From: Shinella zoogloeoides
GTDB taxonomy: Bacteria > Pseudomonadota > Alphaproteobacteria > Rhizobiales > Rhizobiaceae
Assembly: GCF_003574625.1 (NCBI RefSeq)
Contig: NZ_QNUJ01000005.1
Span: forward strand, 62,001-126,000
Length of the DNA stretch: 64,000 nt
Direction of reading: 5' to 3'
Shown piece by piece: positions 5,344 through 25,490 of this stretch. Positions within the stretch are counted from its first letter, which is position 1; every line of letters starts with the position of its first letter. The notes beneath the pieces are model-generated. The model was not told the origin of the DNA and did not search any database. It saw only the letters and a program-made list of their open reading frames with translations. Made by a program: the position numbers and the translations under genes.

Positions 5344-5446
5344 GATGGGTTGCAGGAAATTCCCGCCACACGATGACGGCCCCAAGCCGTCCAGAAGAAA
5401 AAGTCGGCGGGCGTTGACGCCATCAGCTCAGAAAAGGGACGCTCTC

Positions 5447-5686: not shown

Positions 5687-5770
5687 TCCTCCCCGTGGAC
5701 CTGCGCCCGGCAGCGATGCCGGGCGCTGATGCGTTTCTCGTCCTTCGCGCGGAGTGTCACCTGACGGGCC

Positions 5771-7294: not shown

Positions 7295-7983
7295 CGCGGC
7301 AGAACAGGCTTCTGGCGGCGCTCGGCCCGGAGGAGCACGATGCACTCCTGCCCCTGATGACCGACGTGGCCTTGCCGCAGGGGCTGGAACTCTCCCGTCC
7401 CCAGTCGCCGATCGACCATTGTTACTTCCCGGGCTCGGGGATCATCTCGACGGTGGTGGTGTCGCCGACCGGCAAGCAGGCCGAAATCGGCATCATCGGC
7501 CGGGAAGGCATGTCGCCGTCCTCGGCCATCCTCGGGATGGACCGCAATCCGTTCCGCACGGTCATGCAGGTGGACGGGCGCGGTTGGCGCATCCGGTGGG
7601 AGGATTTTCAAAGTCAGGTCGAGGAGCGGCCTGCCTTCCGGTCCGTCATGCTGCGCTGGGCGCAGGCCTTTTCCTGCCAGGTCGCCTTCACGGCGCTTTC
7701 GCAGGCCATCGACCATGTCGACGAGCGCCTCGCCCGCTGGATCCTGATGTGCCACGACCGGGTGGACGGCGACCGGCTGGCCCTGACGCACGAATTCCTG
7801 GCGGTGATGCTCGCCGTCCGGCGGGCGAGCGTCACGAATGCCCTGCATGTGCTGGAAGGCAACGGCTTCATCTATTCCCAGCGCGGCATCATCGTCATCC
7901 GCAACCGCGCGGCCCTGCAGGCCTTCGCGGCGAATTCCTATGGCGAAAGCGAGCGGGAATATGCCCGCCTCTTTCCCTCGTGA
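7291..7983 (+). CDS. Crp/Fnr family transcriptional regulator
   Basis: This 230-residue protein has an N-terminal cyclic-nucleotide-binding-like beta-roll (about residues 10-140, with GSGIISTVVV and GREGMSP). A C-terminal Crp-type winged helix follows (about 150-225), including EFLAVMLAVRRASVTNALHVL as the recognition region. It lacks the four-cysteine cluster of Fnr, so it is not an oxygen-sensing Fnr, and the cAMP-binding residues are not obviously conserved. It overlaps glgA by four bases (ATGA) and is therefore co-translated with it. Such single-domain regulators are common in rhizobial stress clusters; the ligand and targets are unknown. Confidence 0.88.
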   Translation: MTRQNRLLAALGPEEHDALLPLMTDVALPQGLELSRPQSPIDHCYFPGSGIISTVVVSPTGKQAEIGIIGREGMSPSSAILGMDRNPFRTVMQVDGRGWRIRWEDFQSQVEERPAFRSVMLRWAQAFSCQVAFTALSQAIDHVDERLARWILMCHDRVDGDRLALTHEFLAVMLAVRRASVTNALHVLEGNGFIYSQRGIIVIRNRAALQAFAANSYGESEREYARLFPS

Positions 7984-8059
7984 GTCCCACGAAATCTCAG
8001 GGGAACAACCGGCAGGCTTGCGGATTGAAGGGAGGCAGTCATCCGCTGGGAATACGGTC

Positions 8060-8698
8060 ATGCTGAAGAAGGCGAGCACGCCGGCGCCGGCTTTTCAGGA
8101 ACACGCGCAAGGCGATATCGAGGCGATGCACGCCGCGGCGGCGGAATGCCGGCGCTGCGACCTTTATCGCGAGGCGACTCAGGTCGTTTTCGGCGAGGGC
8201 GCGAAGCGGGCGCGGGTGCTTCTCGTCGGCGAGCAGCCGGGCGACCGGGAGGACCAGCTCGGCCATCCCTTCGTCGGCCCGGCCGGGCGCTTCCTCGACG
8301 GCTGTCTCGAGGAGGCCGGCATCGACCGCTCCGCCTGCTACCTCACCAATGCGGTCAAGCATTTCAAGTTCAAGCGCTTCGGCAAGCGGCGTATCCATGA
8401 AAGGCCGAATACCGGCGAGGTCCGGCAATGCGCCTGGTGGCTGGGCGGCGAGATCGAGCGGTTGAAGCCGGCGCTCCTCGTCGCGCTGGGCGCGACCGCG
8501 ACCTTCGCCCTTCTCGGCAAGCGCCACGCCGTCACGGCGGATCGCGGCCGCATCGTCGAGACGGAAAGCGGCGTGCCGACGCTGATCACCGTCCACCCTT
8601 CCGCGCTGCTGCGCAGCCGCGGCCGGCCCGATGCCGAGCAGGAGCGCGGCCGCTTCGTGGCGGAACTGCGCAAGATCAGGCCGTTTCTCGAAAGCTGA
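8060..8698 (+). CDS. udgX: UdgX-type uracil-DNA glycosylase (covalent uracil-DNA cross-linker)
   Basis: This 212-residue protein is a family 4-like uracil-DNA glycosylase with the UdgX hallmark. Motif A is GEQPGDREDQLGHPFVGPAG (57-76). The key loop HFKFKRFGKRRIHERP ends near residue 116 and carries His113. In mycobacterial UdgX the equivalent KRRIH histidine forms a permanent bond with the deoxyribose after uracil removal, so the protein stays cross-linked to DNA. Motif B is VHPSALLR near the C-terminus. Cysteines at 30, 33 and 124 are candidate Fe-S ligands. The start at 8060 was chosen over longer frames because the family N-terminus begins here. A GGAAC box at 8002 has a poor -10 match. 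Confidence 0.9.
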   Translation: MLKKASTPAPAFQEHAQGDIEAMHAAAAECRRCDLYREATQVVFGEGAKRARVLLVGEQPGDREDQLGHPFVGPAGRFLDGCLEEAGIDRSACYLTNAVKHFKFKRFGKRRIHERPNTGEVRQCAWWLGGEIERLKPALLVALGATATFALLGKRHAVTADRGRIVETESGVPTLITVHPSALLRSRGRPDAEQERGRFVAELRKIRPFLES

Positions 8699-8701
8699 GC
8701 G

Positions 8702-8971
8702 TCAGGCCGGCGGGTCGTCCGTCGCCGTTTCGGCGCTATCCTCCACCTCGGTCTCCGGCCGGTCCCGCCCCGCCGCCACCTCGTTGTGCCATCGGCCGTC
8801 CTCGTCCTCATAGGAGATGAAGCGGTCCTCGTCGCTTCTTTCGTGCCGTTCGGCCGCAAGGCGGGCGGCCGCGAGCGCTTCGGCATGGTTGGGGAATGTC
8901 TCGGAAAAGACGTCGTCCAGCCGGTAGGCCCAGCCGTCTTCGTGCGGCACGACATGATAGGTGATCGGCAT
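8702..8971 (-). CDS. DUF2188 domain protein
   Basis: This 89-residue protein contains the DUF2188 signature YHVVPHEDGWAYRLDD, followed by a segment with HAEALAAARLAAERH. The family is small, cytosolic and of unknown function; it is frequent in rhizobial stress gene sets. The start at 8971 has AGGGAG upstream at good spacing; a longer form to 9043 would run through the promoter. The C-terminal third is acidic and rich in Glu/Asp/Thr. It is convergent with the UdgX gene (3 bases between stops) and divergent from the BON gene, with back-to-back EcfG-like promoters in between. Confidence 0.85.
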   Translation of the reverse strand: MPITYHVVPHEDGWAYRLDDVFSETFPNHAEALAAARLAAERHERSDEDRFISYEDEDGRWHNEVAAGRDRPETEVEDSAETATDDPPA

Positions 8972-9003
8972 GATGCGCTCCCTGGTTGTCTCGATGCGGA
9001 AGA

Positions 9004-9028
9004 AACCGGCCGTGCGGCAAATGGTTCC
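9004..9028 (-). promoter_or_regulatory. Putative EcfG-type promoter for the DUF2188 gene
   Basis: Read on the minus strand, GGAAC (9028-9024) is followed after 16 bases by GGTT (9007-9004). It is about 33 bases before the DUF2188 start codon. A second site on the plus strand lies 9 bases away, giving a divergent stress promoter pair. Confidence 0.6.
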
Positions 9029-9036
9029 GGCACGGC

Positions 9037-9061
9037 GGAACAATGGGCGGGCGGATCGGTT
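9037..9061 (+). promoter_or_regulatory. Putative EcfG-type promoter for the BON-domain gene
   Basis: GGAAC at 9037-9041, a 16-base spacer and GGTT at 9058-9061 match the EcfG pattern. The site is about 32-38 bases before the BON-domain gene. Confidence 0.6.
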
Positions 9062-9092
9062 CGAACCTCCTCAGGTATAACAAGCGACGGAG

Positions 9093-9593
9093 ATGACGAT
9101 GAACGGCCGCAAGCAAGCCCCCCGCGAAGACGACTTTCGCGATTACGAACAGCGCGACATCCGCGACGGCTGGCCCTATCCGGACAATGACGGCGACCTG
9201 AACGACGGGAAGAACGCGCCCTACGGCGCGCCGGGGACCAATTTCGACGCGCGCGGCAACAAGGGCGTGGAGGTCGAGGCCGATCCCGACCTGCGGGACG
9301 TCGACGGCGCGCCCATGCCGTTTTCCGACGGGAACGAGGAGGCGATCGCCGCCGACGACCTCGAGGCGCGCATCATGCAGACGCTCGAGGACGACGAGCG
9401 GGTCGATCTCGACATGCTGGAAATCACCATCCGGGACGGTGTCGCCGAACTGGACGGGGCGGTCGACAGCGAGGACGACCGGCGCCATCTCATCGGGCTT
9501 CTACGGCGGGTGAAGGGGCTGCGGGACGTGCGGGCGGAGGGCTTGCTGGCGCGTGGCGTCGACAGCCATGTCCCGCGCGATGTCGACGAATAG
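9093..9593 (+). CDS. BON domain protein
   Basis: This 166-residue protein has an acidic, low-complexity N-terminal half (YPDNDGDLNDGKN and similar) and a C-terminal BON domain of about 70 residues, LEITIRDGVAELDGAVDSE followed by RHLIGLLRRVKGLRDV. BON domains are small alpha/beta modules linked to membrane or periplasmic stress proteins, but no signal peptide is visible, so this one is predicted to be cytosolic. There are two in-frame ATGs: the second (9099) has GGAG at a better distance and may be the real start. An EcfG-like promoter precedes it. It resembles the BON proteins found in rhizobial osmotic or desiccation gene sets. Confidence 0.85.
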   Translation: MTMNGRKQAPREDDFRDYEQRDIRDGWPYPDNDGDLNDGKNAPYGAPGTNFDARGNKGVEVEADPDLRDVDGAPMPFSDGNEEAIAADDLEARIMQTLEDDERVDLDMLEITIRDGVAELDGAVDSEDDRRHLIGLLRRVKGLRDVRAEGLLARGVDSHVPRDVDE

Positions 9594-12262: not shown

Positions 12263-12601
12263 GCTGTATTGACGATTAGCTATCTAATCCAGATGGTTAT
12301 GGGCGGCGATGAGGACGAAGACTCGGAAGTTGGCGGGCGGCTTGTCGTATCACGTTGCGATGCGGCGGAACCGTTTGAATTTGGCAAAGAAGCGCTCAAT
12401 GAGCTTCGTTTCTGTAGATGCGCCAGTCGCAAGCATGAGGATGCCTTCGTTCGGCCATGGCGGAGTAGCGGCAACAGCTCCGCCATCGAGAATGGTGTCG
12501 TGGAAGTAGCACCGCTCAGCTTACCTGCATCCATGGGTGACCTTCAAAAACCGGAATGGAATCTGACCTAATTGGAACACTAAATCGTCACTACATTCTA
12601 A
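12259..12601. mobile_element. Internally deleted IS5-family insertion sequence remnant
   Basis: The ends form an imperfect inverted repeat: TTAGGCTGTATTGACGATT at 12259-12277 pairs with the complement of AATCGTCACTACATTCTAA at 12583-12601, with three mismatches. The interior is only about 300 bases, against roughly 850 for an intact IS5/IS427-type element, and it encodes a decayed transposase tail. The base composition is clearly lower in GC than the flanks. It lies between the PPC gene and the TrpA-like gene. No target-site duplication could be called with confidence. Confidence 0.72.
12284..12440 (-). pseudogene. IS5-type transposase C-terminal fragment, frameshifted with a stop
   Basis: On the minus strand the sequence reads KLIERFFAKFKRFRRIAT, then a TGA stop where family members have arginine, then YDK, ending at TAG 12284-12286. 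This is the conserved C-terminal LIERFF..RRIATRYDK block of IS5-family (IS427-like) DDE transposases. Upstream, DWRIYRN continues the homology in another frame, so there is also a frameshift near 12405-12410. The remainder of the transposase is deleted. The fragment cannot encode an active enzyme. Confidence 0.75.
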
Positions 12602-12606
12602 GCCGG

Positions 12607-13431
12607 TTACCGGCCATCGATGGCCTGCCGGTAGCCGCCGACCAGCCCGGCGGCCGTGCGGCGGAAGGCCTCGGCATCCCCTTGCCCGCGCATCGCCTCG
12701 AACCGGTCGATGAGGGCCGTTGCGACGATGACGCCATCCGCGACTTCCGCGACTTCCGCCGCCATGTCGGGCGTCTTGACGCCGAAGCCGACGAGGACGG
12801 GCAGGCGGCTGGCCGTCCGGCAGCGCGCCACCGCATCCGAGATCGCCTCGATGGAGGCGGAAGGCCCGCCCGTCGGCCCGACGACGGGAATGCAATAGAG
12901 AAAGCCGCCGACGCCCTTGCTGGCGGAAACGAAATCCTCGGCCGGCAGCGACGGGGCGGCAAGCGGGATCATCACCAGCCCATGCCTGCCGAGCGCCTTC
13001 AGCAGCGGCTCGGCCTCGCGAAGCGGCAGGTCGGCGGCAATGAGGCCGTCGACGCCCGCCGCCGCGGCGCGCGCGGCAAAGGCCTCGTAGCCCATGGCGA
13101 GAAGCGGATTGGCATAGCCCATCAGCACGATGGGCGTCGTATCGTCCTCTTCCCGGAAGGCGGCGCAGAGGTCCAGCGTGCGGGAGAGATTGCCGCCCGC
13201 CGCGAGCGCCCGCCGGTTGGCGGTCTGGATCGTCGCGCCGTCGAGAATGGGGTCCGAATAGGGATGGCCGATCTCCAGGAGATCGATGCCGTTTCCGACA
13301 AGCAGCCGCAGCCGCTCGAGGCTCCCAGTGAAATCCGGATCGCAGGCGACGGTGAAGGTGACGAAGGCGCTGCGGCCCTCCGCCTTGAGGCGCGCGAACA
13401 TACGGTCGATGCGGTTGGGGGAACGCGCCAT
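12607..13431 (-). CDS. TrpA-like TIM-barrel lyase in a sugar-transport operon
   Basis: This 274-residue protein is homologous to tryptophan synthase alpha, which cleaves indole-3-glycerol phosphate by retro-aldol to indole and glyceraldehyde 3-phosphate. The catalytic pair is kept: Glu53 in LLEIGHPYSD and Asp64 in PILDG, matching Glu49 and Asp60 of the enteric enzyme with the same 11-residue spacing. IVLMGYANPL and the phosphate-site GFGVKTP are also kept. It diverges at TVACDPD (usually TAGDPD), at the loop YCIPVVGPTGG and at VATALI (usually a Gly-Ser/Thr). It starts 2 bases after the TrpB-like gene and is the last gene of the FGGY-kinase/ABC-transporter operon. That context, not a trp operon, points to a catabolic lyase on a phosphorylated import product. 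Whether it uses indole glycerol phosphate is unknown. Confidence 0.8.
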   Translation of the reverse strand: MARSPNRIDRMFARLKAEGRSAFVTFTVACDPDFTGSLERLRLLVGNGIDLLEIGHPYSDPILDGATIQTANRRALAAGGNLSRTLDLCAAFREEDDTTPIVLMGYANPLLAMGYEAFAARAAAAGVDGLIAADLPLREAEPLLKALGRHGLVMIPLAAPSLPAEDFVSASKGVGGFLYCIPVVGPTGGPSASIEAISDAVARCRTASRLPVLVGFGVKTPDMAAEVAEVADGVIVATALIDRFEAMRGQGDAEAFRRTAAGLVGGYRQAIDGR

Positions 13432-13433
13432 GG

Positions 13434-14621
13434 TCAGCTTTCCGGCCAGATGACGTCGAGGTCCTTGTCGCCGGCGGAAGCCACCATGACGACGACGGCG
13501 TCGTTGCGGTCGTAGAGCCGGGCGATGCGCTCGGCGGCCGCCACCGCATGGCCCGCCTCCAGCGAGACGAGGATCCCTTCGCTTTTCGCCAGCCGCAGCA
13601 CGGCCTGGCGAGCCTCCTCGTCGGTGACGGCGACGGTCTCCACGCGGCCGCGCTCGACGAGATCGGCGATCTCCGGCGCCGAGCCGGGATAGGCGAGCCC
13701 CGGCGCGATCGAGGCGGTCGGCAGGATCTGGCCGTGTTCATCCGCCAGCACCAGCGTCTCGGCGCCGTGGAAGATGCCGCGCCGCCCCTTGCCGAGCCGG
13801 GCGGAATGCGGCGCATCCCCGCCGGACTGGCCGCCGGCCTCGACCGCGACGAGCCGGATCTGCGGATCGCCGACGAAGGCGGAGAAGATGCCGATGGTCG
13901 AGGAGCCGCCGCCGACCGCCGAGACGATGGCGCGCGGCAGCACGCCGGCCTCGATAAGCTGAAGCCGCGTCTCGCGGCCGATCACCGCCTGGAAGGCGCC
14001 GACCATAGCCGGATAGGGATGGGCGCCGATGGGCGCGCCGGCGAGATAGGCCGTCGTCGCGCTGTTGCCCATCCAGTGGCGGATGGCGGCGGAGGTCGCC
14101 GCGCTCAAGGTCCGGTCGGCATCCTCCACGATCCTGAGATCGGCCCCGAAGGCGCGCATCTTCCTGATCGTCGCGGCGTGCCGCGCCGCATCGCTGCTGC
14201 CCATGTAGATGGTGCAGGAAAGCCCGAGCCGGGCGGCGACCGCCGCCGCCGCGACGCCGTTCTGGCCGGAGCCGGTATCCGTGACCACCGAGCCGAGCCC
14301 CATGCGCACGGCGAGGAGGCACTGGCCGAGAGCGGAATTGGCGTAGTTGCCGCCATTGAACGTCAGGTCGTCGCGCTTGAGGATGATGCGCGCCCCGCCG
14401 TTGGCCGAGGCGAGCGTCACCGTTTCGAAGACCGGCGTCGGCCGGCCGACGAAGCGCTCCAGCAGGTCCTCGAAGGTGCGGCGGAAGATGGGGTCCGCCC
14501 AGGCCTGATCGAAGGCGGCTTCGAGGCGGTCGAGCACCGGCAGCAGCACCGGCGCCACGAACTGCCCGCCGAACCGGCCATAGCGCCCCGGCCGCCCTCT
14601 TGCCGCGCCCGCCGCCGTCAT
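13434..14621 (-). CDS. TrpB-like protein lacking the PLP lysine
   Basis: This 395-residue protein aligns along its whole length with tryptophan synthase beta: GRFGGQFVAPVLLPVL at the N-terminus, VGRPTPVFE, KRDDLTFNGG, GGGSSTIG (237-244) and SEGILVSLEAGHA. The catalytic residues are replaced. The HK pair that holds the Schiff-base lysine is Asn92-Tyr93, the AETGAGQHG glutamate is Asp115 and its His is Asn121, the GLDYPG aspartate is Ala310, and the SGRGDKD serine is Ala381. The phosphate loop is kept. It therefore probably cannot do PLP beta-replacement and may be a partner or ligand-binding subunit for the TrpA-like protein. Its start overlaps the permease stop (ATGA at 14621-14618). A longer in-frame extension upstream is the permease region in a wrong frame. 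Confidence 0.82.
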   Translation of the reverse strand: MTAAGAARGRPGRYGRFGGQFVAPVLLPVLDRLEAAFDQAWADPIFRRTFEDLLERFVGRPTPVFETVTLASANGGARIILKRDDLTFNGGNYANSALGQCLLAVRMGLGSVVTDTGSGQNGVAAAAVAARLGLSCTIYMGSSDAARHAATIRKMRAFGADLRIVEDADRTLSAATSAAIRHWMGNSATTAYLAGAPIGAHPYPAMVGAFQAVIGRETRLQLIEAGVLPRAIVSAVGGGSSTIGIFSAFVGDPQIRLVAVEAGGQSGGDAPHSARLGKGRRGIFHGAETLVLADEHGQILPTASIAPGLAYPGSAPEIADLVERGRVETVAVTDEEARQAVLRLAKSEGILVSLEAGHAVAAAERIARLYDRNDAVVVMVASAGDKDLDVIWPES

Positions 14622-15550
14622 GCCGCCCCCCTGCCGATGCGGCGCACCAGCACGGCGGAGAGGATGATCGTGCCGGTGATGATGTCCTGCAGGAAGGTCG
14701 AGACGCCGAGAATGGTGAGGCCGTTGCCGATGACGGCGATGATCGCCGCGCCGACCACCGTGCCCGGCAGGTTCGCCTCGCCCTCGCGGAAGGCCGTCAT
14801 GCCGAGGAAGACGGCGGCATAGGCCGTCAGCAGATAGCCGCCCCCGCCCGTCGGGCTCGCGCTGCCGATGCGGGCTGTGAGCAGGATGCCGACCAGCGCC
14901 GAGAGAACCGCCGAGACGACGAAGGCCGCCGTCGTGTTGGAGACGATCCGGACGCCCGCCAGCCGCGCCGCCTCGCGGTTTCCGCCGATGGCATAGAGTC
15001 GGCGGCCGAATTCCAGCTTGTCGAGCAGGACCCAGACGACGAGCGCGATGGCGATCAGCCACCAGGTCAGCGTCGGCAGGCCCAGCACGTGCCCGCGCGC
15101 CATGTCGCGGAAGCCGGCCGGGATATCGCCGAGCAGCGTCGCACCGTCGGAGACCCAGAAGGTGATGCCGCCGATGATGGTGCCGGTCGCGAGCGTCGCG
15201 ATGAAGGAAAGCACCTGGAAGCGCGAGACCACATAACCCGAGACCGCGCCGAAGAGCGCCGCAACCGCCAGCACGAGGAGGCAGGCGAGCGGCGCGGGCA
15301 CGCCGAGCTTGAAGAGATAGACGACGAAGATGCCGCCGAAGGAGACGATGGAGGCGGTCGATAGGTCGAACTCGCCGACGGCCATCACGACAGTCGCGCC
15401 GATGGCGACAATGGCGAGCAGCGTCATCTGCTGGGTGATGTTGACGAGGTTCGACATGGAGCCGAACGCCCCCGGCGAGGCGATGGAGAAGACGATGACG
15501 ATGGCGATGAGCGCGATGAGCGTTCCGTATTGTCTGACAAGGCCGGTCAT
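14618..15550 (-). CDS. Sugar ABC transporter permease (CUT2, RbsC/XylH type)
   Basis: This 310-residue inner-membrane protein has about eight to ten hydrophobic segments and the branched-chain/ribose permease (BPD_transp_2) pattern, with SIVSFGGIFVVYLF early and AGVRIVSNTTAAFVVSAVLSA in the middle, followed by FLGMTAFREG. It forms the channel of a CUT2 sugar importer with the ATPase and binding protein just upstream. The start codon overlaps the ATPase stop (ATGA) and its own stop overlaps the TrpB-like start (ATGA), so three proteins are translationally chained. The substrate cannot be told from the permease; the family takes pentoses, hexoses, polyols and autoinducer-2. Confidence 0.9.
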   Translation of the reverse strand: MTGLVRQYGTLIALIAIVIVFSIASPGAFGSMSNLVNITQQMTLLAIVAIGATVVMAVGEFDLSTASIVSFGGIFVVYLFKLGVPAPLACLLVLAVAALFGAVSGYVVSRFQVLSFIATLATGTIIGGITFWVSDGATLLGDIPAGFRDMARGHVLGLPTLTWWLIAIALVVWVLLDKLEFGRRLYAIGGNREAARLAGVRIVSNTTAAFVVSAVLSALVGILLTARIGSASPTGGGGYLLTAYAAVFLGMTAFREGEANLPGTVVGAAIIAVIGNGLTILGVSTFLQDIITGTIILSAVLVRRIGRGAA

Positions 15551-17061
15551 GCGGCGGGTTCTCTTCTGGTCTCGTGATGGAATGCGGCGTCGATGATGCG
15601 CGGCGGCGCGATGGCCTCGCCCTCCAGCCGCGCCGTGATCTCGCCATCGGCGAAGACGGCAACGCGGTGCGAGAGCGCCAGCAGTTCATCCATGTCGCTG
15701 GTCGTCATCAGCACGGCCGCGCCCTCAGCGGCGATGCGCCGGACGATGGCATGGATTTCCGCCTTGGCGCCGACATCGACCCCGCGTGTCGGCTCGTCGA
15801 GGATGAGCAGGCGGATGCGCCCGCCGAACCAGCGGCCGAACAGCAGCTTCTGCTGGTTCCCGCCGGAAAGCGTCAGCGGCAGGGCGAAGGGCGAGCCCAT
15901 CTTCACCGAAAGCTGCGTGCGGATATCCTCCGCCCGCGCCGCCAGCCGGCTGCGGCTGGTGACCGGCAGCGCCGGATGGGACCGCACCCGCGAAAGGTCG
16001 CTGATCGCCAGGTTCTCCGCGATGGAGCGGGCCGTCACCAGCCCCTCGTGCCGGCGATCCTCCGGCACATAGGCCCCGCCGTGGCGGATGCGCGCGTGGA
16101 TGTCGCCCGGCTTCAGGACATGGCCGTCGAGGAGGACCGTTCCGCCCTCCGTCCGGCGCGCGCCCCAGATCATCTTCATGAAGGACGACCGGCCCGCGCC
16201 GACCAGCCCGTAGAGGCCGAGGATTTCGCCTTCGCCGACCATCAGCGACAGCGTGTTGCCGCGTTGCCCGAACGGCAGGTCGCGAACCTCCAGCACCGGC
16301 CTGCCGGCGGCGGGCACGGCGGGACGACCGGAGGTTATTTCCTCGTGGCCGGACATCATGCGCACCAGATCGGCCCGTGTCGCGCCTTGCATGACACCGG
16401 TCCCGGCCGTCGCGCCGTTGCGCAGCACCGTGAAGGCGTCACAGATCTCGGCCACCTCGTCGAGCCGGTGGGAAATGTAGATGACGGCGACGCCGCGCGC
16501 CGCCAGCGCCCGCACCGCCTCGTGCAGCCGCCGCGCCTCGCCTTCGGAAAGCGAGGCCGTCGGCTCGTCCATCACGACCAGCCGCGCCGGCTCGTTCATC
16601 AGCGCGCGGATGATCTCGACGAGTTGCTTCTGCCCAGTGGTCAGCCGCCCGGCCGGCACGTCGAGCGGCAGGTCCGGCGCGATCGCCGCCGCCGTCGCCG
16701 CCACCGCGCGCCGCATGGCGGCGCGGTCGATGAAGGGGCCGCGCTTCGGATAGGACCGGCCGACGAAGGCGTTCTCGACGGCGTCGAACTGCGGCACGAG
16801 GCTGAGTTCCTGGTGGATGAAGCGGAAGCCGAGCGCCTCCGCCTCCCGCACGCTGCTGATCGCGATCGCCTCGCCGTCGACCCGGATTTCGCCGGCGTCC
16901 GGCCGCACGAGGCCGGAGAGCGTCTTGATCAGCGTCGACTTGCCCGCGCCGTTCTCGCCGAGCAGGCCATGCACCGAGCCGGCGGCCACGGAAAGGTTCG
17001 CCCCGGCCAGCGCCCGCGCGCCGCCGAAGCGTTTTTCGAGGCCCTTGATCTCAAGCAGCAT
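15547..17061 (-). CDS. Sugar ABC transporter ATP-binding protein (CUT2, two ABC domains)
   Basis: This 504-residue cytoplasmic ATPase has two ABC modules in tandem as in RbsA, XylG and MglA. The first has Walker A GENGAGKST near residue 38 and the LTTGQKQLVEI signature; the second has the degenerate P-loop GLVGAGRSS near 290 and the intact LSGGNQQKLLFGRW signature, followed by LDEPTRGVD. A weakened second Walker A is normal for this family. It follows the binding-protein gene after 16 bases and overlaps the permease by four. It powers import of the unknown substrate of this operon. Confidence 0.93.
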   Translation of the reverse strand: MLLEIKGLEKRFGGARALAGANLSVAAGSVHGLLGENGAGKSTLIKTLSGLVRPDAGEIRVDGEAIAISSVREAEALGFRFIHQELSLVPQFDAVENAFVGRSYPKRGPFIDRAAMRRAVAATAAAIAPDLPLDVPAGRLTTGQKQLVEIIRALMNEPARLVVMDEPTASLSEGEARRLHEAVRALAARGVAVIYISHRLDEVAEICDAFTVLRNGATAGTGVMQGATRADLVRMMSGHEEITSGRPAVPAAGRPVLEVRDLPFGQRGNTLSLMVGEGEILGLYGLVGAGRSSFMKMIWGARRTEGGTVLLDGHVLKPGDIHARIRHGGAYVPEDRRHEGLVTARSIAENLAISDLSRVRSHPALPVTSRSRLAARAEDIRTQLSVKMGSPFALPLTLSGGNQQKLLFGRWFGGRIRLLILDEPTRGVDVGAKAEIHAIVRRIAAEGAAVLMTTSDMDELLALSHRVAVFADGEITARLEGEAIAPPRIIDAAFHHETRREPAA

Positions 17062-17077
17062 GTCCGGCGATCCTTCG

Positions 17078-17992
17078 TTACGGGCAGGTCACGCCGAGCG
17101 TCTCGGGCGTGATCATGACGGCCGGAACGAAGAGCTCGTCCTTGTCCGCCTTGCCGCCGCCAAGGATCTTCTCGAGCTGCTCGGCGCCGACGGCCGCCAT
17201 CTTCGGGAAGTCCTGGCGGAAGGTCGCCTTGTAGCGCGTGCAGGACTTGATCATCTCGATCGCCTGCTCGCTGCCGTCGATGCCCATGATGATGAACTTT
17301 GCATCCGGCTTTTCCGATTCCGTCGCCAGCTCCGCGCCGACGCCCGGATCGTCCCAGGCCGCCCACACGCCGTTGATCTCGTCGCCATGCTGGCGAAGGA
17401 TGTTCTCCATCGCGATGCGACCGTCATCCACCGGCCCCGGCACCTTCACGAAATGATCGGCGATGACCTTGATGTCGGGGTTCTTCTTCAGGGCCTCGTC
17501 GAGCGCCAGCTCGCGCTGGTGCACGCCCGGATGCGCCGAATGGAAGAATTTTACGATATTGCCCTTGCCGCCGAGCGCCTTGAAGAGCGCGTCGGAAAGC
17601 TGGGTGCCGAGATCGAAATTGTTGGAGGTGACGTTGACCGCGACATGCGCGTTCTTCGAACCGTCGAGCGAGATGACAGGGATGCCGGCATTCGCCGCAA
17701 GCGCCACCTGGTCCTCGACCTGCGCCGGATCCGTCGAGACCAGCACGATGGCCGAGGCCTTGGCGTTGATCGTGTCCTCCATGCGCGAGGCGAGCTGGCC
17801 GAAATCGCTGCGGGTATCGATGATGGTGACGTTCCAGCCGCGCTTCTCACCCTCCGCCTTGAAGCTCTGCGCCATCTCGTTGGTCGGCACCGAGCCGATA
17901 TAGGGCGTCAGGATGGTGACGTCGGTGGCGAAGGCGGCAGAAGTCGACGCCATGAGCGCCGCGATGGCCGCTGCAAATACGAATTTCTTCAT
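17078..17992 (-). CDS. Periplasmic sugar-binding protein (CUT2 family)
   Basis: This 304-residue protein has a Sec signal peptide (MKKFVFAAAIAALMASTSAAFA, cleavage before TDVTILTP). A Peripla_BP_4 fold follows, with ISLDGSKNAHVAVNVTSNN and the hinge-proximal AAWDDPGVGAEL. It delivers the substrate to the CUT2 permease encoded downstream. The family includes ribose-, xylose- and polyol-binding proteins; the ligand-contacting residues were not identifiable here. Its leader carries GAGGAGAAC at 18005-17997 (minus strand), which matches the anti-Shine-Dalgarno loop of the AbcR-like RNA at 49.6 kb in eight of nine positions. Confidence 0.92.
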   Translation of the reverse strand: MKKFVFAAAIAALMASTSAAFATDVTILTPYIGSVPTNEMAQSFKAEGEKRGWNVTIIDTRSDFGQLASRMEDTINAKASAIVLVSTDPAQVEDQVALAANAGIPVISLDGSKNAHVAVNVTSNNFDLGTQLSDALFKALGGKGNIVKFFHSAHPGVHQRELALDEALKKNPDIKVIADHFVKVPGPVDDGRIAMENILRQHGDEINGVWAAWDDPGVGAELATESEKPDAKFIIMGIDGSEQAIEMIKSCTRYKATFRQDFPKMAAVGAEQLEKILGGGKADKDELFVPAVMITPETLGVTCP

Positions 17993-18023
17993 TGGGGTTC
18001 TCCTCTCCGGAAAGGTCGTTTCT

Positions 18024-19472
18024 TCATTGGGTGCGGATCAGCCCGATGGGGCGAAGCGCGTCTATGGCGTTGCGATAGGCATGGAACATGGCGTCGTAGC
18101 GCGAAGCGCGCCGCGGATCTGGCTCGAAGACCCGCTCGACGCTGGTCATCGCCGGCACGGCCTCGGCTATCGAGCCGAAGGCGCCGATGCCGACGGCCGC
18201 GAGGATGGCCGCGCCGAGGCAGCCCACATCGACGAAGGCGAAGCGATGCAGCGGAATGCCGAGGCAGTCGGCACGGATCTGGCTCCAGAGGTCCGAGCGC
18301 CCGCCGCCGCCGCCATAGAGCATGTGGTCCGGCCGGAAGCCCGCCGCATCGATGAGCGAGCCCATGGCATGGCGCGCCGCCAGCGCCACGCCTTCCAGCA
18401 CGGCGAGCGCGAAATCCGGCCCGCCGGCCCGGCTGTCGAGGCCGATGAAGGCGCCGCGAATCTCGGAATCCCAGAGCGGCGCACGCTCGCCCTCGAGATG
18501 CGGCAGGAAGAGGATCGGCCGGTCATCGCGGCTGGCAAGGCCAGCGAGCCGCGGCACCTCGCCCGGCTCCACGCCCGCCGTCGCCGCCCACCAGCGCAGC
18601 GAATCCGCCCCGCTCTGCGTCGGCCCGGCATTGACCACCAGCCCGTCGATGGTGGCGAAGGTGACGATGCCGGGCGCCCCGATGCGCTGCGATCCGGCCA
18701 GCGCGAGGATCTCGGAGGTGCCGCTGACATACATGCCCTGCCCCGGCCGGCAGACGCCGCAGCCGAAGAGATTGCCCCAGGCATCCATCGTGCCCGTCAC
18801 CACCGGCACCTTGCGGCCGGAGGAACCGAGCGCCATCTCGCCGGCGATCTCGGTGAAATGCCGGAGCGGCGGCAGCTTGCTCGCCGCGCCGGGCACCCGG
18901 GCGATCAGCGCGTCGATATAGCGGAGGTCCTGCCCGACATGGCCGAAAGCGGAGATGGGATCGGACGAGGCCCCGCCCGTCAGGTGCAGGAGGCAGAAAT
19001 CGCGCGTCGAGAGAACCTGATGCGTGCGCTCCCAGAGATCGGGGCGGTGCTTGGAAAACCACAGCATCTTCGCCAGCACATGGCTCGCGCCGATCGGCAT
19101 TTCGGCGCCCCACCAGCTGCGCTTTTCCGCGGGCGTGATCGTGGCATCGAGCGCCGCCGCTTCCGCGCCGGCCCGGATATCCTGCCAGCAGATCGCGGGC
19201 GCCAGCGGCGTGCCGTCCCGGTCGACGAAGACATCCGTATTGACCTGGCTGCAAAGACCGACCGCGCGGATCTCGGCCGGGTTGCGGCCGACGAGCAGGG
19301 CATCGATCGCATCGCGGATGCCGTCGAGCCAGTGCTGCGGGTCCTGCTCGACCATGCCGGATGCGGGACGCTCGGTCGGATAGCCGCGGCTCCAATGGTC
19401 GAGCACCGTGCCGTTCATGTCGAACAGCGCCGCCTTGATCGAGGTCGAACCGACATCGAAGCCGATCAGCAT
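18024..19472 (-). CDS. FGGY-family carbohydrate kinase
   Basis: This 482-residue kinase has the ASKHA phosphate loop FDVGSTSIKAALFD at its N-terminus and the catalytic aspartate Asp230 in VTGTMDAWGN. The second FGGY signature is near MLYGGGGGRSDLW. The substrate-contact segment CSQVNTDVFVDRDG (normally SGQMHG in xylulokinase) is divergent, so the sugar is probably not D-xylulose. Start 19472 is supported by GGGAGAATGAA just upstream; an extension to 19517 lacks a site. It lies 31 bases before the binding-protein gene. A kinase next to a TrpA-like lyase suggests phosphorylation of a hydroxyl so that the lyase can release glyceraldehyde 3-phosphate. Confidence 0.9.
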   Translation of the reverse strand: MLIGFDVGSTSIKAALFDMNGTVLDHWSRGYPTERPASGMVEQDPQHWLDGIRDAIDALLVGRNPAEIRAVGLCSQVNTDVFVDRDGTPLAPAICWQDIRAGAEAAALDATITPAEKRSWWGAEMPIGASHVLAKMLWFSKHRPDLWERTHQVLSTRDFCLLHLTGGASSDPISAFGHVGQDLRYIDALIARVPGAASKLPPLRHFTEIAGEMALGSSGRKVPVVTGTMDAWGNLFGCGVCRPGQGMYVSGTSEILALAGSQRIGAPGIVTFATIDGLVVNAGPTQSGADSLRWWAATAGVEPGEVPRLAGLASRDDRPILFLPHLEGERAPLWDSEIRGAFIGLDSRAGGPDFALAVLEGVALAARHAMGSLIDAAGFRPDHMLYGGGGGRSDLWSQIRADCLGIPLHRFAFVDVGCLGAAILAAVGIGAFGSIAEAVPAMTSVERVFEPDPRRASRYDAMFHAYRNAIDALRPIGLIRTQ

Positions 19473-19618
19473 TTCATTCTCCCGCCCGCCGCCCTCACGC
19501 GGCGTCCGGGCGGACATTAGGGTCCCGTCATGAAGCTGTCATGGGGAATGATGCCGCGGCGGGGCGATCCGGCGCGAATTCTGCAGGATGTGGATAGTGC
19601 CGGCCGGGGCCGGCGCCG

Positions 19619-20680
19619 TCAGTGATCACGGCGGATATCCGCCGAGGGAAGCACGCCGAAGGCCTCCCGGTAGGTGGCGGAAAAACGGCCGAGGTGATGG
19701 ATGCCAACGCGCCGTGCCGCCTCGGCCGCGCAAAGGCCCTCCTCGCGGATCAGCCTACGCGCCGCCTCCATGCGGATGCGCGTCAGGATCTCATGCGGCG
19801 TGCGCTGGTAATAGGTCCGGAACCCCTCGTAGAGCGCCCGCTCGGAAACGCCGATCTCGCCCGCGATCGCCGGCATCAGCAGGCGTTCGGGATAGCGGGA
19901 TCGCAGCGCATCCATCGCCTGCTTCACATGGCGGGGCGAAACATGCAGCCGCTCGGGGACCACCGATGCGGCGCTGGTGAAGGCGACATTGCCGAGGAGC
20001 TGGTCGACGACGGAACCGAGCGCCGCGTCGACGGCCTGCGGCGCATCCGAAAAGGCGTCGTCCGCAAGCATTTCGGAAAAGGCGCTGAGGACCGAGGCGA
20101 GCTGCCGCCCATGCCGGCTGGAAAGGTCGATGACGGGATTGAACACCGGACTGCCGCCACGCCGGCGCGATATCGCCGCGAGGCGCTCCTCGACCAGCCT
20201 GCGGTCGATCTGCAACATCCGCTGCCGCGTGCCCCGCCGCCAGCGCGACTGGAACTTCGGCCCCGGCGACAGGATCAGCGCCTTGCCCGCTTCCGAGCGG
20301 ATGGTCTCGGTTCCGAAGGCGATGTCCACGCCGCCGGAAACCGGCATTTCGAGCATGTAGAAATCCTCGAAGCGGGAGCTGATCGTGACCTCGTGGCCAT
20401 ATTGCAGGAAATTGAAGCCGGAGCCGGAGAACTGCACGCAGCGATGACGGAAATCGACGGCGCCCGTCCGATCCTGCGGCGCCAGCCGGTGGTCGCAATA
20501 GGAGGCCGAGAGGTAGGCTTCCGCCTCCCCGAGCGCCGTCGCCCTTGTTTCCCTGACCTCCAACGGCAAGCGTCCGCCCTCTGCCCCCTGTTCGACGGTG
20601 CCACTATCGCAATGGCGGCCGGCAACGGCAAGGCTTCCTTGCGACGCTTTGTCCGGAAGCGGTGGATGACAGGCGGGCAT
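19619..20680 (-). CDS. AraC-family transcriptional regulator
   Basis: This protein, up to 353 residues, has an N-terminal AraC-binding-like domain (about 50-220, with the segment ending SRFEDFYMLEMPVSGG). A C-terminal double helix-turn-helix (about 250-345) includes IGVSERALYEGFRTYYQRTP and AARRVGIHHLGRFSATYREA, ending in the usual FGVLPS. It is on the same strand as, and upstream of, the FGGY kinase, with 146 bases between, so it most likely activates the kinase/transporter/TrpAB-like operon. The first 40-50 residues are not typical and the true start may be later. It is divergent from the MocR gene; the two promoters share a 45-base space. Confidence 0.88.
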   Translation of the reverse strand: MPACHPPLPDKASQGSLAVAGRHCDSGTVEQGAEGGRLPLEVRETRATALGEAEAYLSASYCDHRLAPQDRTGAVDFRHRCVQFSGSGFNFLQYGHEVTISSRFEDFYMLEMPVSGGVDIAFGTETIRSEAGKALILSPGPKFQSRWRRGTRQRMLQIDRRLVEERLAAISRRRGGSPVFNPVIDLSSRHGRQLASVLSAFSEMLADDAFSDAPQAVDAALGSVVDQLLGNVAFTSAASVVPERLHVSPRHVKQAMDALRSRYPERLLMPAIAGEIGVSERALYEGFRTYYQRTPHEILTRIRMEAARRLIREEGLCAAEAARRVGIHHLGRFSATYREAFGVLPSADIRRDH

Positions 20681-20700
20681 GCAGGCAATATACAGTCAAT
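20676..20700. promoter_or_regulatory. Candidate MocR/AraC regulatory motif
   Basis: On the minus strand this stretch reads ATTGACTGTAT, then 7 bases, then GCATGC. The same arrangement, ATTGACTGCAT followed 4 bases later by GCATGC, is found at 22211-22231 upstream of the DUF983 gene. Two copies flanking a MocR gene suggest its operator. This is a visual match only. Confidence 0.35.
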
Positions 20701-20725
20701 ATCCGCAGCGCATGGAATCCCCGGC

Positions 20726-22132
20726 ATGAAGAACTGGCATCCCGATCTGGGCCAAAGTGACAGCCCCCTCTACATGGCGATTGCCGACCTGATCGCGGCG
20801 GACCTGCGCAGCGGCGTGCTGGCGGCCGGTGACAAGCTGCCGACGCACCGGGCGCTGGCCAAGCGCCTTGCCATCGACGTTACCACGGTGGCGCGCGGCT
20901 ATCTGGAGGCGCAGAAGCGCGGACTCGTGCAATCGCATGTCGGCCGCGGCACCTTCGTGACCGGCAATGCTGCGGCCCCGGCCAGTGTCCCGCCTGCCGA
21001 CACGCCCGCCGATCCGCGTCGTGCCGCCATCGTCGACCCGTCGATGAACATGCCGCCCGAGCCCGACGATCCAGCCCTTCTCGCCCGCATGCGCGGCGGG
21101 CTCGCTGCGCTTTCGGCCGATCTCGTCCCGCTCCTGCGCTATCAGGGCTTCGGCGGCGCGGCCGTGGACAAGGAGGCCGCCGCGCTGTGGCTCGCGCGCC
21201 GCGGCCTGACACCGCGGCAGGAGCGCATCTTCGTCACGCCGGGCGCGCACCCGACGCTGCTTGCGATCCTCGGTACGCTCGCCGCCGCGGGAGACACGGT
21301 GCTCTCGGAAAACATTACCTATCCCGGCATCCGCTCCATCGCCGCCCAGCTCCGCCTGCGCCTTGTCGGCCTGCCGATGGACGGCGACGGCATCCTGCCG
21401 GACGCCTTCGCGGCGGCCTGCGAGCGCGAAAGGCCGAAGGCGCTCTATCTCAACCCGACACTGCACAATCCCCTGACTTTCACCATGCCCGCCGCGCGCC
21501 GCGCGGAAATCGCCGCCGTGGCGCAAAGATACCGCGTGCCCATCGTCGAGGACGACGCCTACGGCTTTATTCCCGCCGACGGGCCGGCGCCCCTCGCCGC
21601 CCATGCGCCGGACCTTACCTGGCATATCGGCGGGCTTTCGAAATGCATCGGCGCGGGCCTGCGCCTTGCCTATGTCGCCGCGCCGGACGACAGCCGCGCG
21701 CTCTGGTCCTTCGCCGGCGCGATGCGGGCCGGCAGCGTCATGGCCTCGCCGCTCTCCGCCGCGCTCGCGACGCGCTGGACCGAGGACGGCACGGCCGAGG
21801 CGATCCTCGCGGCCCTCCGCATCGAAACGGCGGAGCGCCAGGCGCTCGCCGCAAGCCTGCTGCCGACAGGCAGCCATGTCGCCGACCCGCTGAGCTTCAA
21901 CATCTGGCTGCCCCTGCCGCATGGCTGGACCCGCTCCACCTTCAGCGCCTATATGCGCGACAGCGGCCTCGGCGTCGTCGCGAGCGACGCCTTCACGGTC
22001 GACAGCACGCCGCCGGAGGCCGTGCGCGTCTGCCTCGGCGGCCCCATCGCCCGCCCGCAGCTCCGCTCCGCCCTCGAATTCATGGCGCATGCCCTCGAAG
22101 GCCCGCCCGAAATGGCCGGCTCGTTCTTCTGA
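20726..22132 (+). CDS. MocR-type regulator (GntR helix-turn-helix fused to aminotransferase fold)
   Basis: This 468-residue protein has an N-terminal GntR winged helix (about 10-80, with LPTHRALAKRLAIDVTTVAR). A linker follows, then a fold-type I aminotransferase-like domain (about 110-460). The PLP lysine is in WHIGGLSKCIGAGLR and the partner aspartate in VPIVEDDAYGFI. MocR regulators sense PLP or an amino compound and usually control a neighbouring gene. The start at 20726 was chosen because the GntR domain begins here; the frame is open much further upstream but overlaps the AraC gene. The ribosome-binding site is weak. It is divergent from the AraC gene and followed by DUF983. Confidence 0.9.
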   Translation: MKNWHPDLGQSDSPLYMAIADLIAADLRSGVLAAGDKLPTHRALAKRLAIDVTTVARGYLEAQKRGLVQSHVGRGTFVTGNAAAPASVPPADTPADPRRAAIVDPSMNMPPEPDDPALLARMRGGLAALSADLVPLLRYQGFGGAAVDKEAAALWLARRGLTPRQERIFVTPGAHPTLLAILGTLAAAGDTVLSENITYPGIRSIAAQLRLRLVGLPMDGDGILPDAFAAACERERPKALYLNPTLHNPLTFTMPAARRAEIAAVAQRYRVPIVEDDAYGFIPADGPAPLAAHAPDLTWHIGGLSKCIGAGLRLAYVAAPDDSRALWSFAGAMRAGSVMASPLSAALATRWTEDGTAEAILAALRIETAERQALAASLLPTGSHVADPLSFNIWLPLPHGWTRSTFSAYMRDSGLGVVASDAFTVDSTPPEAVRVCLGGPIARPQLRSALEFMAHALEGPPEMAGSFF

Positions 22133-22919: not shown

Positions 22920-24014
22920 ATGACACTTCCAACCGCCGCGGGCAGCACCGCCTCGCATGAGCGAGCGGATCTTGCGCCCATGGTTACCTTCGAAGGCCTG
23001 ACCAAGCGCTACGGCACGGCCGCGGATGCCTTCCTCGCCCTCGACGGCGTCGACATGACGGTCGGGCGCGGCGCGATCACCGGCATCATCGGCCGCTCGG
23101 GCGCGGGAAAATCGACGCTCATCCGCCTCGTCAACGGGCTGGAAAAGGCGTCCTCCGGCAGGGTCGTCGTCGACGGCACGGAAGTCGGCGGGCTGAACGA
23201 CGCGGGCCTCAGGGGCCTGCGCCGCGAAGTCGGCATGATCTTCCAGCATTTCAATCTCCTGTCCTCGCGCACCGCCTTCGACAATGTCGCCCTACCGCTC
23301 GAGATCGCCGGGCTGGACCGCGCCGCGATCCGCGCCAAGGTCGGCCCGCTTCTCGATCTCGTCGGCCTCGGCGACAAGGCGGAGCGTTATCCTTCCGAAC
23401 TTTCCGGCGGACAGAAGCAGCGCGTCGGCATCGCCCGCGCGCTCGCCACCGCGCCGAAGCTGCTGCTCTCCGACGAGGCGACTTCGGCGCTCGACCCGGA
23501 AACCACCCAGTCGATCCTCGCCCTTCTCAAGCAGATCAACGCCGATCTCGGCCTGACCGTGCTGCTGATCACGCATGAGATGGAGGTGGTGAAGACCATC
23601 GCCTCGCATGTCGCGGTCATCGACAGGGGCCGCATCGTCGAGCAGGGGCCGACCTTCGACATCTTCACGGCGCCCAGGCACGAGACGACGAAGATCCTTC
23701 TTTCCTCCACGCTCGGCACCAGCCTGCCGGAATGGCTGCGCTCCGGCGTGAAGGCCGCGCCCTCGGCGGGCGACCGCGTCCTCGTGCGCCTCACCTTCTT
23801 CGGCGCGACGGCCTTCCAGCCGCTGACGGCGCGGCTCGTCACCGAGATCGGCGGCAACGTCAACATCCTCGCCGGCTCCATCGAGGAGATCGCGGGCGAG
23901 CCCTTCGGCACGCTCGTCGTCGCCTATCCGGCGACGCCCGAGGTCATCGAGCGCGCCGACCGCTTCTATGCCGCAACCGGCCTTTCCACGGAGGTGCTCG
24001 GCTATGTCGCCTGA
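22920..24014 (+). CDS. metN: Methionine ABC transporter ATP-binding protein
   Basis: This 364-residue ATPase has Walker [10 protein letters not shown] near residue 60, Q-loop [11 protein letters not shown], signature LSGGQKQR and Walker [18 protein letters not shown]-terminal NIL (ACT-like) domain of about 80 residues follows ([18 protein letters not shown] to the end). The NIL domain binds methionine and inhibits transport when the cell is replete, which marks this as MetN. It heads metNIQ. The first 20 residues are not typical and Met21 (22980) is an alternative start. The leader contains a short SAM-II-like string (see findings), but I cannot fold a complete riboswitch. Confidence 0.94.
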
Positions 24015-24672
24015 CATGCTTTTCGACCTGCTCTGGAAATCCCTGCTGCAGACGCTGCACATGGTCGCCGTCTCCGGCCTCGTCGGCTCGCTGATCGGCC
24101 TGCCGATCGGCGTGTTCCTCGCCACCTCCGGCCGGAACGAGCTCTTCCCCGCGCCGGCGCTGAACTATGCCATCGGGCTGATCGTCAACGCGGCGCGCTC
24201 GACACCCTTCATCATCCTCGTCGTCGCGATCATTCCCTTCACCCGCCTCCTGACCGGCACGTCGATCGGCACCACGGCGGCCATCGTGCCGCTGACCATC
24301 GCGACCGTTCCCTTCTTCGCGCGCCTCGTCGAGGCGGCGATCCGGGAAATCGACAAGGGACTGATCGAGGCGGCCCGCGCCATGGGCGCGACGCCCATGC
24401 AGATCGTCTTCAAGGTGCTTCTCGCCGAGGCCCGCCCGGCGATCCTGCTGGCCTTCACCATGACCATCGTCAGCCTGATTGGCTATTCGGCCATGGTCGG
24501 CGCGGTCGGCGGCGGCGGTCTGGGCGACCTCGGCATCCGCTACGGCTACCAGCGCTTCATGCCCGAGGTGATGCTGGCCGTGGTGGTCGTGCTCATCGTC
24601 CTCGTGCAACTCGTCCAGAGCGCGGGCGACGCGCTCGCCCGGCGCTTCGACAAGCGTAACCGCAAGAGCTGA
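24004..24672 (+). CDS. metI: Methionine ABC transporter permease
   Basis: This 222-residue inner-membrane permease has about five transmembrane helices and the MetI pattern: [23 protein letters not shown] in the middle, then the EAA loop with [26 protein letters not shown], which contacts MetN. The C-terminus [26 protein letters not shown] is diagnostic. It overlaps the end of metN by 11 bases; an alternative ATG at 24016 begins just after the metN stop. The pair forms the D/L-methionine importer with the lipoprotein or periplasmic MetQ encoded next. Confidence 0.94.
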
Positions 24673-24713
24673 CGCCTTTCCTTTCAAATCCATGTAACCT
24701 CAAGGAGATACAC

Positions 24714-25490
24714 ATGATGAAGTTCCTCGTCTCGGCGGCCCTCGCCGCCCTCATCAGCGTTCCGGCGCTCGCCGAAGACATCAAGATCGGCGTCACGCCC
24801 GGCGAGCACGCGCAGATCATGGAAAAGGTCAAGGACGTCGCCGCCAAGAAGGGCCTCAACATCGAGATCCTGGAATTCTCCGACTATGTCGTGCCGAACC
24901 AGGCGCTGGCCGATGGCGACCTCAACGCCAATTCCTTCCAGCATCAGCCCTATCTCGACAACCAGATCGCCGATCGCGGCTTCGATCTCGTCAGCGTCGG
25001 CAAGACCATCACCACGCCGATGGGCGTCTATTCCAAGAAGGTGAAGAACCTCGGCGAGCTTGCCGAAGGCGCGACCGTCGCCATCCCGAACGACCCGACG
25101 AACGGCGGCCGCGCGCTGCTCATCCTCGCCAAGGAAGGCCTCATCAAGGTCAAGCCGGAAGCGGGCCTGAAGGCCGGCCCCGCCGACGTCATCGAGAACC
25201 CGAAGAACATCCAGTTCTCCGAACTCGACGCCGCGCAGCTTCCCCGCTCGCTGGATGACGTCGACGCCGCCGTCATCAACACGAACTATGCGATGGAAGC
25301 GGGCCTTCACCCGAAGACCGACGCCATCGCCATGGAAGGCAGCGAGTCGCCCTATGCCAACGTGATCGTCGTGCGCCGCGCCGACAAGGACGCCCCCTGG
25401 GTCAAGACCCTTGTCGAAGCCTATCACGATGACAGCATCAAGGCCTTCATCAACGACGAGTTCAAGGGCGCCCTGATCCCCGCCTGGTAA
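24714..25490 (+). CDS. metQ: Methionine-binding protein (NlpA/MetQ family)
   Basis: This 258-residue periplasmic protein has a signal peptide ending ALISVPALA before EDIKIGVTPGEHAQ; there is no lipobox cysteine, so it is soluble, unlike E. coli MetQ. The body contains the family stretches QALADGDLNANSFQHQPYL and VAIPNDPTNGGRALLIL, ending in FKGALIPAW, the typical MetQ C-terminus. AAGGAGATACACATG gives a strong start. It is last in metNIQ and is followed by a stable hairpin at 25521. Confidence 0.94.
   Translation: MMKFLVSAALAALISVPALAEDIKIGVTPGEHAQIMEKVKDVAAKKGLNIEILEFSDYVVPNQALADGDLNANSFQHQPYLDNQIADRGFDLVSVGKTITTPMGVYSKKVKNLGELAEGATVAIPNDPTNGGRALLILAKEGLIKVKPEAGLKAGPADVIENPKNIQFSELDAAQLPRSLDDVDAAVINTNYAMEAGLHPKTDAIAMEGSESPYANVIVVRRADKDAPWVKTLVEAYHDDSIKAFINDEFKGALIPAW

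Follow-up and report, generated by a model that had tools for sequence, protein, structure and literature searches.

A tryptophan synthase-like gene pair with a predicted TrpB pseudoenzyme in a CUT2 sugar-import operon of Shinella zoogloeoides: a candidate route for indolyl-polyol breakdown

Closest described systems and the operon in the window

In textbooks, tryptophan synthase is the standard example of channelling in a biosynthetic enzyme. Here we describe a TrpB-like and a TrpA-like gene that lie instead behind a sugar kinase and a CUT2 sugar importer in Shinella zoogloeoides, within a window (i.e., the whole stretch of DNA analysed, 64,000 nucleotides, G000:C23:62001-126000) of its 5.38 Mb genome. 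The TrpB-like protein has lost the pyridoxal phosphate (PLP) lysine. We consider it somewhat better than an even chance (probability about 0.55) that the operon encodes the breakdown of an imported indole bearing a short polyol chain, with indole-3-glycerol as the likeliest candidate, and that the TrpB-like protein assists TrpA without making tryptophan.

A related arrangement occurs in eudicot plants, where TSB-like, a TrpB paralog that does not synthesize tryptophan and carries changes at a catalytic Glu and at an Asp in the allosteric switch, activates TSA, which then releases indole; the replacements are Glu to Ala and Asp to Glu, with work on β-D305A cited for the Asp (PMC12727527). The operon TrpB-like proteins resemble the plant protein in being altered at the catalytic Glu (E109D in 18/19) and at the switch Asp (D305A/S in 19/19), but they differ in combining E109D and D305A/S with K87Y, H86N, and H115N. 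Plants use the indole for defence and signalling, whereas the importer and kinase of the operon suggest uptake and breakdown. The parallel would be one of function and position, not of replacement residues or demonstrated descent. An origin independent of plant TSB-like is likely for the operon protein; the TrpB tree used below holds no plant sequence.

Maize BX1, among the stand-alone indole-3-glycerol phosphate lyases, is a further likeness, as it uses the TrpA fold for release of free indole. The operon pair shares with bacterial TrpAB the fold, the pairing of the genes, and the TrpA catalytic residues, but differs in a TrpB-like protein without the PLP lysine, in the sugar importer and kinase of the operon, and in forming separate clades. 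Bacterial indole-degradation clusters of the iif/ind type contain a short-chain dehydrogenase/reductase (SDR), a StyA-like monooxygenase, a flavin reductase, and an AraC regulator (PMC6221969, PMC9871250). In five genomes that carry relatives of the operon, a flavin reductase, an SDR, an IndA-type monooxygenase, and AraC stand beside it; however, the published clusters act on free indole and, in the available parts of the two papers, are described without an importer, kinase, or TrpAB (PMC6221969, PMC9871250). Finally, the operon resembles CUT2 and FGGY sugar operons in importer architecture, kinase family, and AraC-type regulator, but neither a sugar isomerase nor a usual aldolase is among its seven genes, their place being taken by the TrpA- and TrpB-like proteins. 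The folds and the reaction are thus known; the arrangement with a bacterial TrpB pseudoenzyme was not met in the literature searched. Among the matches listed there, with most subscription journals outside the coverage, no bacterial catabolic TrpA/TrpB operon was described.

All seven genes lie on the minus strand. The AraC-family regulator (19619-20680; AraC_binding_2 and HTH_18) had AndR as its top NCBIfam match (110 bits versus a cut-off of 350), and the FGGY carbohydrate kinase (18024-19517; FGGY_N/C), a putative indolyl-polyol kinase, matched xylulokinase best, under the cut-off of every listed family. The importer genes encode a ribose-binding-like periplasmic binding protein (SBP; 17078-17992; Peripla_BP_4), a double ABC ATPase (15547-17061; ABC_tran twice), and a permease (14618-15550; BPD_transp_2). 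They are followed by the TrpB-like predicted pseudoenzyme (13434-14621; TIGR00263 trpB, 9.7e-125, at 416.6 bits just over the cut-off of 392.45) and the TrpA-like predicted lyase (TrpA1; 12607-13431; Trp_syntA, 5.8e-71). From the kinase to TrpA1, successive genes are spaced by 31 bases, 16 bases, an ATGA overlap, a second ATGA overlap, and 2 bases. With SBP, double ATPase, permease, and kinase all present, the pair belongs to a CUT2 import operon with an FGGY kinase. The original prediction, made from the DNA letters, had described just such a unit with these overlaps and gaps, and all seven genes were found as placed, with their families confirmed. Since NCBIfam models label the two proteins trpA and trpB, automatic annotation would mislead here.

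Scanning of genome contigs with six peptide patterns of the TrpB-like protein gave 61 loci, of which 18 were 68-89% identical to it and the next 47% and lower. One pattern, FNGGNYAN, includes the Y and so favours K87Y copies; nonetheless, the interval between 47% and 68% was empty. The 18 relatives are titled Rhizobium, Rhizobiaceae, Rhizobiales, Martelella, Mesorhizobium, Devosia, Phaeobacter, Pacificibacter, Ancalomicrobiaceae, and Marinicella. The order FGGY-SBP-ATPase-permease-TrpB-TrpA was kept in 17/17 untruncated loci, L035 being cut by a contig end, so that the arrangement is beyond chance; this bears out the earlier expectation that gene order would be conserved in other species. AraC stands in front in 16 of the 17 (the exception being L040), and the ATPase and permease matches of L050 were incomplete. 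The TrpB-like gene was found in 2/21 genomes of the window's genus, both of one species, in 8/394 genomes of a family sample, and in 1/385 genomes of an even class sample, i.e., the window's own. A tblastn search of plasmids returned 129 records, all below 60% identity, and the one inspected was an ordinary trpB. In genome G005, the PLP lysine is retained in the second TrpB. As a side observation from reading of open reading frames (ORFs), the Rhizobium loci L036 (14393-19523), L048 (12444-17490), and L049 (13119-18162) have an amidohydrolase-like gene and an ABC importer 3' of the operon on the opposite strand.

A TrpB-like protein without the PLP lysine

The TrpB-like protein was aligned with the host TrpB and with E. 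coli TrpB, whose numbering is used throughout; the window protein and its 18 relatives (n = 19) were compared with 70 ordinary TrpB proteins in the same alignment. At position 87, that of the PLP lysine, Y was present in 19/19 TrpB-like proteins versus K in 70/70 ordinary ones, and positions 86 and 115 were both N in 19/19 versus H in 70/70. E109 was replaced by D in 18 of the 19 and retained as E in one, D305 was replaced by A in 15 and S in four, and S377 was retained in one. We take E109 and D305 to be the positions altered in plant TSB-like. The window protein itself has K87Y, H86N, E109D, H115N, D305A, and S377A, with an intact GGGS phosphate loop, a motif present in 18/19. Unable to form the usual PLP aldimine, the protein should make no tryptophan. 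The original prediction had the family and place of this gene right, but had not foreseen that the PLP lysine would be missing and that the protein would be no ordinary partner of TrpA.

The loss is not accompanied by decay. The ratio of non-synonymous to synonymous substitution (dN/dS) was 0.03-0.09 in 6/6 pairs of relatives, and, judged on its residues and this ratio, the TrpB-like protein is a conserved pseudoenzyme as regards PLP chemistry, under purifying selection. A decaying pseudogene was rejected on the same ratio, with the exception of locus L057 (5049-8749). There the operon is in decay, i.e., the kinase and ATPase frames are broken, while the TrpB-like gene and a second TrpA gene (TrpA2, see below) are open; IndA was not found in that genome.

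Could the protein have acquired a different reaction? With an altered cavity and an intact phosphate loop, it might act without PLP on the ring product of TrpA or on a phosphorylated intermediate. GGGS in 18/19 and the sequence LKRDDLTFNGGNYANSA, unchanged in 19/19 rows where the lysine used to be, seem to represent conservation beyond the needs of a scaffold. However, there was no positive evidence of any reaction, the eudicot TSB-like protein demonstrates that a role without catalysis suffices, and the predicted structure was too poor (predicted local distance difference test, pLDDT, of 66) for the pocket to be judged, although Foldseek ranked TrpB chains top nonetheless. We regard such an activity as improbable. 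As regards a role in support of TrpA, a live TrpB would draw indole off into tryptophan, and an inactive one could go on supporting TrpA.

That the pair is merely a redundant copy of the biosynthetic enzymes, lying in a sugar operon by chance, we consider scarcely credible. The NCBIfam models do name both proteins, above cut-off, trpB and trpA. Against this, the PLP lysine is gone in 19/19, the operon order is conserved, the pair forms clades of its own, and an ordinary trpBA is present elsewhere in the host genome (G000:C27:232946-234731), to which the operon proteins are 42% (TrpB-like) and 41% (TrpA-like) identical. In quick trees without bootstrap, the TrpB-like and TrpA1 proteins each formed one separate clade on a long stem (Shimodaira-Hasegawa-like approximate likelihood-ratio test, SH-aLRT, 100), the TrpA1 clade adjoining alphaproteobacterial TrpA with a support of 94. 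Ordinary TrpB and TrpA rows in these trees had a match covering 85%, no stop, and no identity with another row; the TrpB tree includes one mislabelled duplicate (L145_canonB, i.e., the L095 TrpB-like protein reread), which was removed before the 70 ordinary TrpB were counted. The view that these genes are paralogs and not the host's biosynthetic pair, put forward before any tree had been built, thus holds on both points: they fall outside the ordinary trpBA clade, and a separate trpBA exists. Biosynthetic paralogs were rejected on K87Y together with that separate trpBA.

TrpA-type lyases and the indole-monooxygenase link

In contrast with its partner, TrpA1 has an intact active site. All 19 proteins retain E49, D60, Y102, T183, G184, G211, F212, and G213, including the Glu/Asp pair singled out in the original prediction, as well as P53, D56, P57, N104, and P132, presumably the positions of contact with the β subunit. 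On sequence grounds, these residues are compatible with an indole-3-glycerol phosphate lyase.

A further, divergent TrpA-family gene of about 257 codons, TrpA2, lies between AraC and the kinase in 12 of 17 loci; it is absent from the window and from five relatives, and L035 could not be judged. The one protein scanned with Pfam matched Trp_syntA at 3.6e-22. Together with five proteins from the sister operons described below (n = 17), TrpA2 retains E49 in 17/17 and D60 in 16/17. In the 12 from the operon loci, P53 and F54 are present in 0/12 and D56 in 7/12, and all 12 have M at Y175 and Q at L177. A model of TrpA2 (pLDDT 93) gave BX1 and TrpA chains as best matches: the top match in the PDB was BX1 (1tjr; template-modelling, TM, score 0.78, 26% identity), with Salmonella TrpA at a TM score of 0.77, a lead so tiny that it makes no statement on the function of TrpA2.

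TrpA2 also occurs without the pair. A close relative of the operon (L197 in genome G822, 3262-9228) has TrpA2, kinase, and importer at 67-84% identity, with IndA in the genome, and neither TrpB-like nor TrpA1 behind the permease. A sister operon family, with TrpA2 at 38-41% and kinase at 44-45% identity, was found in five genomes (L198 in G980, L199 in G778, L200 in G928, L201 in G1054, and L202 in G1019). Its order is AraC-TrpA2-FGGY-SBP-ATPase-permease in L198, L200, and L201; the AraC gene is further away in L202, and a contig end falls inside the ATPase in L199. No TrpB-like gene was found in G822 or the five sister-operon genomes at E 1e-140. The sister operons are a possible second pathway built on a TrpA-type lyase.

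Some operons thus have both lyases, the window has only TrpA1 with TrpB-like, and some have only TrpA2, as if either lyase (TrpA1 with TrpB-like, or TrpA2) were enough. Every operon examined combines the kinase and importer with one or more TrpA-fold proteins, of which either kind may be absent. As all of them were found via TrpB-like or TrpA2, this co-occurrence is not an unbiased observation: the searches would miss orthologous operons of kinase and importer that lack both genes. A single TrpA/TrpB pair had been proposed for the operon at the outset; the pair is there, but related operons add a second TrpA gene and some are without any TrpB.

The identity of the ring is suggested by the neighbours of the operon in other genomes. 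A flavin monooxygenase of the Smoa_sbd family (IndA) and an SDR lie inside the 10 kb flanks of 4/18 loci, with a flavin reductase too in three. The cluster is upstream in L041 and L095, downstream in L044, and upstream on the other strand in L045. In genome G1078 (L194) the genes are contiguous on one strand, in the order flavin reductase-SDR-IndA-AraC-TrpA2-FGGY-SBP-ATPase-permease-TrpB-TrpA. The operon of L040 lacks a leading AraC gene, and in the same genome an operon-type AraC, with 51% identity to that of the window, immediately follows the IndA cluster on its 3' side (L134). Anywhere in the genome, IndA was found in 15 of the 18 operon genomes; for comparison, an order sample had an IndA homolog in 12/297 genomes at E 1e-20, eight of the 12 at 74% identity or more. 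In the family sample (n = 394), IndA was present in 6/8 operon genomes versus 26/386 others (Fisher p 4.5e-6), or, counted by genus, in 4/5 operon genera versus 12/104 others (p 0.0015).

The monooxygenase of L095 scored 623-629 bits with 7z4x and its variants, 551 with 9lrq, 192 with a chain of the styrene/indole monooxygenase family, and 133 with the styrene monooxygenase 3ihm; we take 7z4x to be the indole monooxygenase VpIndA1. The published indole-monooxygenase fingerprint is S46-Q48-M50-V/I73-I76-A96 (PMC13101512). In 15 IndA proteins, S46, Q48, V73, and I76 were present in 15/15, M50 in 12, A96 in 11, and all six in 10/15, position 96 being assigned by alignment to residue 101 of the L095 protein. 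By homology, these neighbouring genes point to indole as the ring product.

Might the ring be another one, e.g., anthranilate or a different heteroaryl on a polyol, with the IndA homologs acting on its derivative? The AraC proteins scanned, of the operon type and from the IndA side, score best to AndR, a regulator of anthranilate dioxygenase, yet far below cut-off. Furthermore, IndA of Phaeobacter and of two Pacificibacter has Q at position 50, and the two Pacificibacter proteins have G at 96. We give this little credence in view of M50 in 12 of the 15 IndA proteins, the four fully conserved fingerprint residues, and the retention of the checked TrpA residues in TrpA1.

The surroundings of IndA were examined in all 15 genomes, with Pfam applied to selected flanking genes. 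Near IndA in L135 (2987-18955) it identified an SBP_bac_5-type ABC importer, a glyoxalase-fold protein, a luciferase-like monooxygenase, and an Oxidored_FMN/FAD_binding_3 fusion. Genes related to these were found again in three to six of 13 IndA regions, including L136, L138, L141, L142, and L144, and perhaps serve further catabolism of indole compounds.

The candidate route and its weighing

An indole-3-glycerol route is the simplest way to bring together the importer and the FGGY kinase, the intact active site of TrpA, the disarming of TrpB, and the predicted oxidation of indole in relatives. In this route, the CUT2 importer would take up indole-3-glycerol or a close relative, and the FGGY kinase would phosphorylate its end hydroxyl to give indole-3-glycerol phosphate. 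The TrpA-like protein would then split this by a retro-aldol reaction into glyceraldehyde 3-phosphate, which would join central metabolism, and indole, with the TrpB-like protein as a structural and activating partner letting TrpA release the indole free. In most relatives, indole would be oxidised by the indole-monooxygenase cluster; in the host of the window, it may be excreted, taken by the ordinary TrpB, or processed by another route. The substrate, the specificity of the kinase, the lyase activity, and the activator role of the TrpB-like protein are those that we infer from this combination. The original prediction had a kinase product cleaved by the TrpA-like lyase to a ring product; this remains the best fit, and IndA in relatives suggests that the ring would be indole, the route itself being one that we again infer.

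A number of results weigh against this route. K167 and D305 are gone in 19/19 TrpB-like proteins and R141 is retained in 12/19; we take these three residues to be parts of the α-β switch, so that their state argues against activation of the usual kind. IndA was not found in the window's own genome, where the IifA oxygenase was not among the things searched for, nor in three of the 18 operon genomes (G408, G416, and G421). Conversely, 26 family-sample genomes have IndA but not the operon, and no TrpB-like gene was found in any of the 12 order-sample genomes that hold an IndA homolog. IndA also has lineage signal: in each of the genera g409 and g475, some IndA genomes have the operon and others do not. 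Judged by identical coordinates, most of the eight operon genomes of the family sample are apparently genomes behind the 18 loci, which means that neither count is independent of the other. The matches of the importer and of the kinase assign no substrate to either. Among the literature matches listed, there was no paper on indole-3-glycerol catabolism or on indole-3-glycerol as a growth substrate. Finally, IndA was not found in the five sister-operon genomes at E 1e-100, and a kinase and importer of this kind therefore need not serve indoles.

This last result would also fit an ordinary sugar pathway, in which the kinase makes a ketose phosphate, a TrpA-fold aldolase yields glyceraldehyde 3-phosphate together with a small aldehyde or ketone, and the proximity of IndA is incidental. 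The importer and the xylulokinase-like kinase are indeed similar to those of pentose systems, and the sister operons have TrpA2, kinase, and importer in genomes in which no IndA was found. However, IndA is linked to the operon in five genomes in three arrangements and is enriched in the family sample, the canonical active-site residues checked are retained in TrpA1, and a plain aldolase hardly explains why a TrpB paralog is kept. We therefore consider a sugar pathway unlikely, although with a real chance of being correct.

More tentatively than for the indole-3-glycerol route itself, and with more doubt than confidence, we suggest that the operons represent a dedicated alphaproteobacterial indolyl-polyol route using tryptophan synthase as an import-coupled releaser of indole. 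The family would hold two solutions that plants reached separately, TrpA with a dead TrpB and the stand-alone TrpA-type lyase (here TrpA2), and the sisters with TrpA2 only would handle other polyols, ring-linked or branched, by a further pathway. If the indole-3-glycerol route is true, a tryptophan synthase complex would serve breakdown, parallel to the recent finding in plants, and bacteria of the Rhizobium and Roseobacter groups would have a means of releasing the signalling molecule indole from a bound state. Indole-3-glycerol becomes a specific, testable substrate.

Two other import systems were considered for the operon and rejected, i.e., an autoinducer-2 (AI-2; Lsr) system, since Lsr models scored far under cut-off, and vitamin B6 import, since ABC_ATP_B6 gave 323.6 bits versus a cut-off of 670 and another model scored best. 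Within 12300-21000, a promoter scan gave no sites, and a terminator scan gave four sites versus 3.5 in shuffles. Elsewhere in the window, at 22920-25490, lie an ABC ATPase, a permease, and a binding protein, by the look of their ORFs a methionine importer of the MetNIQ type.

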